DNA of 64,000 nt from Kastovskya adunca ATA6-11-RM4 (GTDB lineage Bacteria > Cyanobacteriota > Cyanobacteriia > Cyanobacteriales > Coleofasciculaceae): assembly GCA_019359445.1 (NCBI GenBank), contig JAHHHJ010000026.1:1-64000 (forward strand). The letters are read 5' to 3'. Shown here in pieces: positions 9,213 to 14,646 of the stretch; position 1 is the stretch's first letter, and the number at the start of each line of letters is the position of its first letter. The notes beneath the pieces were generated by a model. It was not told the origin of the DNA, searched no databases, and saw only the letters and a list, made by a program, of their open reading frames with translations. The position numbers and the translations under genes are program-made.

Positions 9213-9908
9213 TCATTCCACTGCGCCGTAACGAGCGGTGACAGACTGTTCTGGGTTTATTTGGTTATGTTGCCACGCCCACAGTTGATCGCCTAGGGAG
9301 AAGTGCCACCACTCGTTGGGATGACGCAGAAATCCGGCGCTGTGCATGACATTGTGCAAGATTTGGCGATGAGTATGATAAGGCTGGTTGGGTTGGTTGG
9401 TGTAGTAATTGGGATGCGATCGCGCTGATATTTCATCAATAGCTGAACCCATATCCACTGCTTTACCTGTGGCATCTACCAGGGTGACATCGACAGCCGC
9501 CCCCGTGCTGTGAGGCGGTGGTGTGGCAGGGTTAGAGCTGGGAACTGCCCAAAATTGATAGACTTCCTCCCAAAGGGCAAGCTGCTGCTGTTCTGATTCT
9601 GCAAGGCTTAGTCCTTTTGCCTGCAAAACTTCCGTAAAGGTGTAATCCACCATGAATTGTTGCACCGCCACGGGGCGATAGGCATCAAAAATCTGAATGC
9701 GCCAGCCGGGATGCTGATGTTGCAAGTCGGCTTGGGCATTGATCAGCGCTTTGAGGACACTCTGACGGAGATAGTAGGGAGAAGCCTTGCCATAAGGCGC
9801 ACCCAACTTTTCGTAGGGATGGGGCGACTCAACGGCAAACTGTTCTAAGGGAATCGATGTCAGGGGTTCTCCGCATTCTACAATGGGAATCTGCTGATAA
9901 GGTTTCAT
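9213..9908 (-). CDS. D-alanyl-D-alanine dipeptidase (VanX family, M15D)
   Basis: This 231-aa protein has the zinc and catalytic motifs of VanX-type peptidases: the transition-state arginine in DAYRP (about residue 76), HSTGAAVD (His and Asp zinc ligands) and EWWHFS (catalytic Glu and third zinc ligand). It should hydrolyse D-Ala-D-Ala. In a cyanobacterium with no vanA/vanH nearby this is more likely wall recycling or nutrient use than vancomycin resistance. No signal peptide is visible. Its start faces the leader of the CRISPR array. Confidence 0.9.
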   Translation of the reverse strand: MKPYQQIPIVECGEPLTSIPLEQFAVESPHPYEKLGAPYGKASPYYLRQSVLKALINAQADLQHQHPGWRIQIFDAYRPVAVQQFMVDYTFTEVLQAKGLSLAESEQQQLALWEEVYQFWAVPSSNPATPPPHSTGAAVDVTLVDATGKAVDMGSAIDEISARSHPNYYTNQPNQPYHTHRQILHNVMHSAGFLRHPNEWWHFSLGDQLWAWQHNQINPEQSVTARYGAVE

Positions 9909-10173
9909 GTATTTTCATCCCCATAGCGCGGAGAGGTAGGTGTTTTTGAGGCTTGGGTGAGTTTTGCGGCAAGAAGCTTTACCTAGCAAGGGTTTGAGAG
10001 TTTTACTCAATTTATCGATCCGCGCAATTTCCAGAAAGCTTACTACAGCTAGCTTTGAGGCAAAATCATCTCTACTCCTATTCCCAATTTATAGTCTGAA
10101 ATGATATGCTATTATCTAATCCGCGCAACAGCACCTTGAAAACTAAATACTGTCTACTTTCCAGGTTGCCGCA
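9909..10173 (+). promoter_or_regulatory. CRISPR leader region
   Basis: This 265-bp gene-free, A/T-leaning stretch directly precedes the first perfect repeat. It contains a direct repeat ATCCGCGCAA at 10018-10027 and 10119-10128, and a TATGCTATTAT segment near 10106-10116 that could be a -10 region. The sequence GCACCTTGAAAACTAAATA at about 10131-10149 resembles leaders I remember from other cyanobacterial arrays. Degenerate repeats lie at the far end, so this is the acquisition and transcription side. Confidence 0.65.
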
Positions 10174-13100
10174 GTTTCAAAAACCACTAATCCCTATCAG
10201 GGATTGAAACTATAAAAGCAGTATTAGCTAAATCAGCACCATTAACTGTTTCAAAAACCACTAATCCCTATCAGGGATTGAAACTTGGGAACTGTCCTCC
10301 GACGAGCTTCTGGAGAGTTTCTATGTTTCAAAAACCACTAATCCCTATCAGGGATTGAAACACATCAACGCCATTACACCACCAGCCGCCATGCTGTTTC
10401 AAAAACCACTAATCCCTATCAGGGATTGAAACTTGTGCCACCTTACGGCGAGTCTCGATGTAGGGAGCCTCAATAGTTTCAAAAACCACTAATCCCTATC
10501 AGGGATTGAAACGGGGAAATAGATCTCCCAGAACCTATCTCTTCGGTTTCAAAAACCACTAATCCCTATCAGGGATTGAAACCGCCACCAGCACCGAGCG
10601 GGATCTTTTGAGTGAAGTTTCAAAAACCACTAATCCCTATCAGGGATTGAAACTCACCACGCTAATATCCTACCGACAGAAGGCAAGTTTCAAAAACCAC
10701 TAATCCCTATCAGGGATTGAAACAACTATACAGACGGCTCTATTTGGATTAGTAGGCTCAAAAGTTTCAAAAACCACTAATCCCTATCAGGGATTGAAAC
10801 CTTGAGGCTCTATCCGAGCATAGGCAGGGGCAGAAAAGCCAAGTTTCAAAAACCACTAATCCCTATCAGGGATTGAAACCGACTTGACTCAGCCGATAGC
10901 TCACAACCATTTCGTGTTTCAAAAACCACTAATCCCTATCAGGGATTGAAACAGCGAATCGCAGCAGACCAAAAGCAACAAATCGATGTTTCAAAAACCA
11001 CTAATCCCTATCAGGGATTGAAACGAGAGGGCTTAGTTGTCCGGGTAGAGCGCCGCGCGTTTCAAAAACCACTAATCCCTATCAGGGATTGAAACTACCT
11101 GACGGTTAAAGAGGAATTGAGGATTATTGGTTTCAAAAACCACTAATCCCTATCAGGGATTGAAACTTGATTCCCGCAATGATGATTACTCGAAAAACCT
11201 GTTTCAAAAACCACTAATCCCTATCAGGGATTGAAACATTAATTAAGGATTTTATGCAAGAAATCACTGCTGAGTTTCAAAAACCACTAATCCCTATCAG
11301 GGATTGAAACACAGGGGCGATCGCATTTCTGGACACCTCTAGCAAGTTTCAAAAACCACTAATCCCTATCAGGGATTGAAACAGTTTGACTGAGCAGCGA
11401 AAGAGCAAAACTCTCGTTTCAAAAACCACTAATCCCTATCAGGGATTGAAACGATGAATTGGTCGTATTGAAGTAGAAAGTCTCTCTCGGTTTCAAAAAC
11501 CACTAATCCCTATCAGGGATTGAAACTGAACTTCCTATAATTACCCGTGCTAAATCCGACGTTTCAAAAACCACTAATCCCTATCAGGGATTGAAACTTT
11601 TAACTGCTGCTGATATCTATTTGTTCAGAGTTTGTTTCAAAAACCACTAATCCCTATCAGGGATTGAAACCACCCACCGCACATTCCCGCTGTCGGGTTT
11701 GTCGGTTTCAAAAACCACTAATCCCTATCAGGGATTGAAACATGCCTTGAGTAAGTGATCGCCTATTTGGGCAAGTTTCAAAAACCACTAATCCCTATCA
11801 GGGATTGAAACGGGGCTTTATGAATCGCAAAAATCAAGCCGGAAGTTTCAAAAACCACTAATCCCTATCAGGGATTGAAACAGGCAGCCCAAAAGCTGGA
11901 CTTCGAGCTAGTCAAAGTTTCAAAAACCACTAATCCCTATCAGGGATTGAAACATAGCGTAATACTTTTTCTCTTTAAGAGAACCGCTGTTTCAAAAACC
12001 ACTAATCCCTATCAGGGATTGAAACAGAATGAGATTGCAGAGTATTGATTAAGTGCGATCGCGTTTCAAAAACCACTAATCCCTATCAGGGATTGAAACG
12101 TGAACAAGTCACCATAGTTTCCACAATCACCGAGTTTCAAAAACCACTAATCCCTATCAGGGATTGAAACTTGATAGCCAGACGCGCTCCCATCGCGCCA
12201 AGTTTCAAAAACCACTAATCCCTATCAGGGATTGAAACGCCATTTTTGCAGTGCAGCTCTAGGATCTCTTTTTCCGTTTCAAAAACCACTAATCCCTATC
12301 AGGGATTGAAACGGTTGTCAATGACGCCGAAGACTTCATTCATCCGGTTTCAAAAACCACTAATCCCTATCAGGGATTGAAACTTGTATAGGAGTATACC
12401 AAATGAAGAAAACAAAAGTTTCAAAAACCACTAATCCCTATCAGGGATTGAAACTGCAATTCACCGCCCTCAGCGAAATTCAAATCGACAAGTTTCAAAA
12501 ACCACTAATCCCTATCAGGGATTGAAACTGAGCTAGAGCGGCTTCGTGTATCTCAGTCTTTGTTTCAAAAACCACTAATCCCTATCAGGGATTGAAACTT
12601 TGTAGGAGATTTTGTTTCATGAGCGAATACCTGTTTCAAAAACCACTAATCCCTATCAGGGATTGAAACCAAGATTCAACTGGGCTTTACCGAGCTGGGC
12701 AGATGGTTTCAAAAACCACTAATCCCTATCAGGGATTGAAACACTTATCGCCCTCAGGTGACGCTCTTTTTCTATCGTTTCAAAAACCACTAATCCCTAT
12801 CAGGGATTGAAACAACTTTGACAACCGCTGTGATGCCTTGTCTGTAAGGTTTCAAAAACCACTAATCCCTATCAGGGATTGAAACTGATGTACGCAATCC
12901 ACAAAGCACCAACGGGCAAAATCTACGGTTTCAAAAACCACTAATCCCTATCAGGGATTGAAACAATGCACGAAAATACATTAAGGAAGCTTCAATTAGT
13001 TTCAAAAACCACTAATCCCTATCAGGGATTGAAACGAGCGATCGCTATTGTCGATTTTCGGCACCATCCAGGTTTCAAAAACCACTAATCCCTATCAGGG

Positions 13101-14427
13101 ATTGAAACAGGCAAAGGAGAGCCATATAATGACAATTACCCAACGTTTCAAAAACCACTAATCCCTATCAGGGATTGAAACAGACCCGGAAATCAAGGCA
13201 TTCATTCGTAGCATTTAGCGTTTCAAAAACCACTAATCCCTATCAGGGATTGAAACCATTAGTCGCTGACTGTGTTAGAGATTCGTTCTGTCGTGGTTTC
13301 AAAAACCACTAATCCCTATCAGGGATTGAAACATACATGGTAGTTAGTGGTAGATGATGGTCTAGAGTTTCAAAAACCACTAATCCCTATCAGGGATTGA
13401 AACTGGGTTTAGCTTCTTTTCCCAGCGCTCGACGATTTTGGTTTCAAAAACCACTAATCCCTATCAGGGATTGAAACCTTAAACTGATGCCCGTGCCGCT
13501 GAATATCCCTCGCCGTTTCAAAAACCACTAATCCCTATCAGGGATTGAAACTCGATCGGCGAACCGCGCATAGGTGACGCGCTGGAAGTTTCAAAAACCA
13601 CTAATCCCTATCAGGGATTGAAACCCGTTTTCGATGGTTGGGGTTTGGTTGGGCATGAGTTTCAAAAACCACTAATCCCTATCAGGGATTGAAACAATTT
13701 CGTTTAGGTAGGCTCTTACATCTAGAATCGTTTCAAAAACCACTAATCCCTATCAGGGATTGAAACTTCGATTGCGAAGAACTTTGGTTTGATGGCAGCG
13801 AGTTTCAAAAACCACTAATCCCTATCAGGGATTGAAACAACGGTGGAGGTGGTGGGGCGCGGTGATCTGGAGGTTTCAAAAACCACTAATCCCTATCAGG
13901 GATTGAAACCCGCTGGATCAGGGATTCAAAGCCGTCTTCCATCGTTTCAAAAACCACTAATCCCTATCAGGGATTGAAACTATTCCTAAAGGAGTAAGTA
14001 ATCAAGCATGCCTGAGTTTCAAAAACCACTAATCCCTATCAGGGATTGAAACAAGAAATTAAAGCCCAATTTCTACACTTTGCGCGGGAGGGTTTCAAAA
14101 ACCACTAATCCCTATCAGGGATTGAAACGGGGCGGTAAAGTTCCTGCCCTAGAATTACGGGTTTCAAGTTTCAAAAATCACTAATCCCTATCAGGGATTG
14201 AAACAAAATGATAGACGATAGTAGACAACTTCGTCTCAGGTTTCAAAAATCACTAATCCCTATCAGGGATTGAAACAGCCCTTCTCTGAGCCAGTGCAGC
14301 TCGATTTCTAGTTTCAAAAATCACTAATCCCTATCAGGGATTGAAATCGTGATTCGCAGTTCTCAGCCGCCAGGGCTTGCAGATTATCCCGTTTCAAAAA
14401 TCACTAATCCCTATCAGGGATTGAAAC
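10174..14427 (+). CRISPR. CRISPR array, 59 repeats of 37 nt, 58 spacers
   Basis: I counted 59 repeats by hand. The first (10174-10210) is canonical, and repeats 1-55 are identical as far as I could check by eye. Each starts GTTTCAA and ends ATTGAAAC. Each contains the 7-bp stem AATCCCT/AGGGATT with an ATC loop, and the ends form a second inverted pair (GTTTCAA/TTGAAAC). The spacers I measured are 33-43 nt and no two looked alike. Repeats 56-59 (starts 14168, 14240, 14311, 14391) all carry C-to-T at repeat position 11, and repeat 58 also ends in T instead of C. The 3' end ATTGAAAC is the usual 5' handle of type I-D/I-B and type III crRNAs in cyanobacteria; variable spacer length favours type III or shared use. 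No cas gene lies in this window. Confidence 0.99.
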
Positions 14428-14646
14428 GCTTTCCTTTGGAGGTACAGGATCGTAACCGCCGGGATGGAAGGGGTGACAGCGTAAGATGCGCCGAATGGCT
14501 AGCCAACTACCACGCCAAGCACCAAATCGCTCTACCGCTTCGAGAGCATAGGTAGAACAGGTAGGGGAAAAACGACAAGATGGCGGGAATAGGGGAGAAA
14601 GAAGCATCCGATAGCCCCGAATTAACCAAATAAGCAACCTTTTCAT
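14404..14646 (-). CDS. yidD: Membrane protein insertion efficiency factor YidD
   Basis: This 80-aa protein has the whole YidD signature: [23 protein letters not shown] followed by [14 protein letters not shown], here read in pieces along the frame. It works with YidC in inserting membrane proteins. The last ten codons or so (after DPVPPKE) are read from the antisense strand of the terminal CRISPR repeat, and the TAG stop is inside that repeat at 14404-14406. The conserved part is complete before the repeat begins, so the protein is probably functional with a foreign tail. Confidence 0.93.

Follow-up and report, generated by a model that had tools for sequence, protein, structure and literature searches.

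A gene whose frame runs into a CRISPR array raises two questions: whether the repeat has taken the place of a functional gene end, and whether the contact marks a break in the chromosome. Such a contact was predicted in the window, that is, in the whole 64,000-nucleotide stretch of Kastovskya adunca DNA analysed here, in which yidD on the reverse strand meets a CRISPR array on the forward strand (Table 1). We analysed the end of the yidD frame, the array and its leader, and the surroundings of yidD in 235 distinct loci.

Table 1. Coordinates of the features around the contact between yidD and the CRISPR array (positions in the window)
Feature	Position	Strand	Description
D-Ala-D-Ala dipeptidase gene (Peptidase_M15, vanX-like)	9213-9908	-	the array's other neighbour
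Leader end	10054-10173	+	core common to the genome's other two arrays and the G005 array
CRISPR array	10174-14427	+	59 repeats of 37 nt, 58 distinct spacers of 31-43 nt
Terminal (leader-distal) repeat	14391-14427	+	37 nt; exact copy of the ATCACT variant
Coding part of terminal repeat (VSIPDRD and TAG)	14404-14427	-	from sequence and frame
Palindrome of terminal repeat, then AGTGATTTTT; terminator-like	14406-14422	-	from a terminator scan; fold weak
yidD	14404-14646	-	80 aa; last seven codons and TAG within the terminal CRISPR repeat; Pfam PF01809

The end of the yidD frame

The original prediction that yidD ends inside the last CRISPR repeat was confirmed by the overlap of the gene with the terminal repeat, and the TAG that it had placed at 14404 spans 14406-14404 on the reverse strand. 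It had further assigned to the repeat the last ten codons or so of the gene, including SVSIPDRD. The residues VSIPDRD and the TAG are encoded by the repeat as stated, but these are only seven whole codons (V74-D80) and the stop, which take up 24 of the 37 nt, and the serine that precedes them (AGC, 14430-14428) lies outside. The TAG is followed by an in-frame TGA (14403-14401), giving two stops in tandem. Each of the three frames of the terminal repeat contains a stop on the yidD strand, and one of them reads FNP followed by two stops; as a result, any gene entering the array from that side closes there. The unusual feature is the short distance between the array edge and the conserved part of YidD, rather than the closing of the frame in the repeat.

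The product belongs to YidD (PF01809), a putative membrane protein insertion efficiency factor, and its gene is the only one in the genome with this match. The match scored 115.1 bits against a curated cut-off of 27 and covered residues 2-68, corresponding to profile positions 1-67 of 67. Between the end of the match at residue 68 and the repeat lie 15 nt, which leaves five codons for a stop before the repeat. The frame, the stop and the intact domain can thus be read directly from the window.

We defined the tail of YidD as the part after GGYDPV and measured it in 234 of the 235 distinct sequences. The tail had a median length of 10 residues, with 5th and 95th percentiles of 1 and 29 and a minimum of 0, and was longer in fused cases. 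In an alignment of 47 YidD sequences, the invariant columns stopped at P67. The predicted structure, which was only moderate as a model (mean 70.9, pTM 0.56), gave residues 77-80 a pLDDT below 50.

The claim that a functional gene end had been replaced was not borne out, as the Pfam domain is complete and the tail of the relatives is unconserved, so that they hold no conserved end that was lost here. We rejected the loss of a functional YidD end because residues 2-68 are intact, the tail is variable and the last invariant column is P67. Since the replaced tail is unconserved, we infer that YidD function is probably unaffected by VSIPDRD. Neither VSIPDRD nor any of its four-residue pieces occurred in the other 233 tails compared, barring one PDRD (L161), which is due to chance; among these tails, the same C-terminal residues were therefore not supplied by non-repeat DNA in any relative.

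The array and its leader

The array has 59 repeats, spacers that all differ and a leader whose core recurs in two other arrays of the genome. This core, CGCAA..G.ACCT.GAAAACTA.ATAC, precedes the first repeat and was also found in the arrays on contigs C29 and C13 and in G005, a genome of the same family and another genus. The shared core places the leader next to position 10174, towards the dipeptidase gene, so that yidD faces the oldest end of the array.

No cas1 gene was found on the contig of the array; within the genome, cas1 occurred only on contigs C13 and C16. The C13 array adjoins the genes for Cas10d, Csc2, Csc1, Cas6d, Cas4 and Cas1 in a row, which form a I-D set, whereas contig C16 carries a second cas locus (I-B) with Cas3, Cas8b, Cas7b and a Cas4-Cas1 fusion. 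The leader core and the 3' half of the repeat in the window match those of the C13 array, and this similarity suggests an I-D-like array; the array is remote from both cas loci.

Several details of the arrays were recorded. In the four repeats nearest yidD (14168-14427), one common substitution gives ATCACT instead of ACCACT, and the second-from-end repeat has its last base changed. The spacer at 13478-13514 and a spacer of the C13 I-D array (L220, approximately 10902-10938) show a 93% match over 29 nt and may come from related targets. The third array, on contig C29 (L139), has at least 46 repeats of a similar sequence (3 mismatches) and an identical leader core; about 300 bp past its far end lies a degenerate repeat.

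In G005 (L123), the repeats begin 19 bp past an intact yidD stop, after which the contig ends. The dipeptidase gene is located on a separate contig, whose start consists of the same repeat and leader. Arrays do break assemblies, as in G005, where the contigs end inside the array, and the contact in the window might accordingly be an artificial joining of an array edge to yidD. However, the two flanks of the array are adjacent to each other in other genomes, all spacers are different (58 of 58), and no part of yidD before the repeat is disrupted; we regard an assembly error as extremely improbable.

Gene neighbourhood and recurrence of arrays beside yidD

The original prediction had also taken the edge of the array as the mark of a rearrangement. 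A dipeptidase gene downstream of yidD and on the same strand was found in 51 of the 235 loci, including the window (50 of 234 others). The two genes lie within 1 kb of each other in 38 of these loci, are fused or overlapping in 2 and lie farther apart in 11. In 12 of 235 loci, the window included, the order was complete and also comprised the divergent upstream gene, DUF3110 and a murQ-like SIS-domain gene. Within the DNA examined, the dipeptidase gene was not found in the remaining 184 loci, of which 31 extended less than 1.5 kb downstream and some were non-cyanobacterial. The yidD-dipeptidase neighbourhood is therefore common, although not universal. The rearrangement was not supported, as yidD and the dipeptidase gene are neighbours elsewhere too and the G005 array stands beside an intact stop. 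To judge by the gene order, the neighbourhood into which the array is set is an old one, and nothing in the flanks of the array points to a large rearrangement; no more than a small local deletion or the loss of a stop would be required.

The space between the two genes varies among loci. In L158 and L169 (G052 and G074), the yidD frame continues stop-free into the dipeptidase gene, forming one frame of about 320 codons. In the gap of L151 (5334-7663, G044), one lone CRISPR repeat is accompanied by two genes, one for a C-5 cytosine DNA methylase (PF00145) and one that matches ICEA below the threshold. In L266 (G152), yidD is separated from the array by a XisI gene (PF08869; 738-1070). Among the other enlarged gaps, that of L191 contains a GGDEF/PAS gene and that of L053 a barstar and a GUN4-kinase gene.

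A similar array 3' of yidD, with no dipeptidase gene between, was found in 8 of the 235 distinct loci (the window, L123, L295, L266, L281, L180, L156 and L304), and the orientation of the repeats was identical in all of them. The dipeptidase gene lies beyond the array in six of the eight, counting the separate contig of G005, and the DNA examined for L295 and L266 ended short of any dipeptidase gene. Only the array of the window overlaps yidD, whereas in the other seven the distance from the yidD stop to the first repeat is 19 to about 850 bp.

These distances bear on a founding event as the source of the contact, in which leader and repeat would have been placed at the very 3' end of yidD, so that the founding repeat would have closed the gene from the start. 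The array is oldest at its terminal repeat, which is intact here, and the related array of G005 lies on the same side of the gene, both of which are consistent with such an event. The spacing in the seven other loci indicates, however, that direct contact is not the rule, and intact terminal repeats are found at these loci as well, so that intactness does not date the junction. We consider this origin unlikely. An intact terminal repeat as proof of a recent junction was likewise rejected, since yidD-side repeats are intact in other arrays too.

As a control, we counted arrays with three or more repeats of the same kind in the 235 loci and obtained 8 arrays in 877 kb downstream of yidD, none in 720 kb upstream and none in 711 kb farther out. 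One of the eight control arrays (L291) lies beyond the dipeptidase gene in the opposite orientation. The G005 locus, with two full repeats at its contig end, is below the three-repeat threshold and was added to the 3'-side count. Other tandem repeats were set aside by eye (L041 downstream; L187 and L107 upstream; L053, L132, L071, L134 and L107 farther out), and several single pairs of short repeats were also left out of the count. Additionally, an 11-base scan gave matches downstream in 14 of 235 loci and upstream in 1 of 235; four of the 14 (L126, L077, L265 and L165) were lone matches with no array. The lone repeat in G044 lies near the dipeptidase gene. The loci are related, five of them (L266, L281, L180, L156 and L304) belonging to one family (f32); the counts are therefore not independent, and we withheld a P value.

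When the array label was placed on a tree built from 60 dipeptidase sequences, it required 6 changes, of which well-supported branches made at least 3 necessary; 111 of 500 shuffles performed equally well. The tree gave no indication of clustering of the label, which covered seven rows, L295, L266 and L156 being too short to enter; it also included L151 (the lone repeat) and L291 (the array beyond the dipeptidase gene), which blurred the test. The array position next to yidD may reflect either inheritance with losses or repeated arrival. In the parts of the literature covered by our library and search terms, we found no report of a gene stop in a repeat or of an array beside yidD.

Effect and origin of the overlap

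The antisense arrangement stated in the original prediction agrees with the features, as the array on the forward strand and yidD on the reverse strand overlap; their transcripts may overlap too. Between 14100 and 14750, the scan gave five terminator-like sites, four of them on the yidD strand, against 0.7 in shuffled sequences; the four correspond to one site per repeat and are not independent. The RNA fold of the repeat had an energy of -9.2 kcal/mol (z -1.68), with 11 of 200 shuffles as good, and a longer piece had a z of -0.62. With a fold this weak, the predicted role of the terminal repeat as a yidD terminator is only a possibility.

The overlap could have been selected, with the repeat serving yidD as stop and transcription terminator or with the array transcript acting as an antisense regulator of yidD. 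The palindrome and T-run, which score as terminator-like on the yidD strand, and the two tandem stops fit such a role; the weak fold, in which the ends of the repeat are paired with each other, and the arrays at other loci, which stay clear of yidD, argue against it, and we judge selection to be very unlikely. A wider proposal holds that I-D-like arrays have recurrently or for long been at home 3' of yidD in the order, each of them pointing at the gene, and that the terminal repeat here was co-opted as stop and terminator; we consider this proposal improbable.

We favour, with good confidence, an overlap that arose at the boundary, in which the array lay near yidD, a small local change removed the tail and stop of the gene, and the repeat closed the frame with the function probably kept. 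An I-D-like array with no cas genes beside it fills the space that separates yidD from the dipeptidase gene, its old end towards yidD. A small deletion or similar change probably stripped yidD of its tail and stop, bringing the last repeat within 15 nt of the last conserved codon. As the sequence shows, the frame enters the repeat and ends at its TAG, and VSIPDRD takes the place of an unconserved tail. The deletion or stop loss is a step that we infer, since the sample covers 20 genomes of the family, in which the genome of the window (G000) is the sole member of its genus and none falls between it and G005. The overlap is probably a harmless boundary effect.

As such, the locus illustrates a probably harmless contact of a CRISPR array with a host gene, with a tail that is free to vary and a repeat that has stops in all frames. 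The effect of the overlap is likely ordinary, and the recurrent position of arrays beside yidD is the better lead. If this recurrence holds, arrays with one kind of repeat reappear 3' of yidD across several families, and one could then ask how arrays that lack cas genes reach chromosomal sites and persist there.

Three known systems can be compared with the locus. The gene product resembles YidD (PF01809) in its complete domain, residues 2-68, and differs in its last seven residues, which are encoded by a CRISPR repeat here and occur in no other measured tail. The array downstream of yidD in G005 is alike in flank, orientation and leader core; it differs in the 5' half of the repeat and in the 19 bp that separate its first repeat from the intact yidD stop. 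Cyanobacterial subtype I-D CRISPR-Cas, of which Synechocystis PCC 6803 is an example, is matched by the I-D genes on C13 and by the leader core and repeat 3' half that the C13 array shares with the window; in contrast, the array of the window lies on another contig, one that lacks cas1, and the 5' half of its repeat is unlike that of C13.
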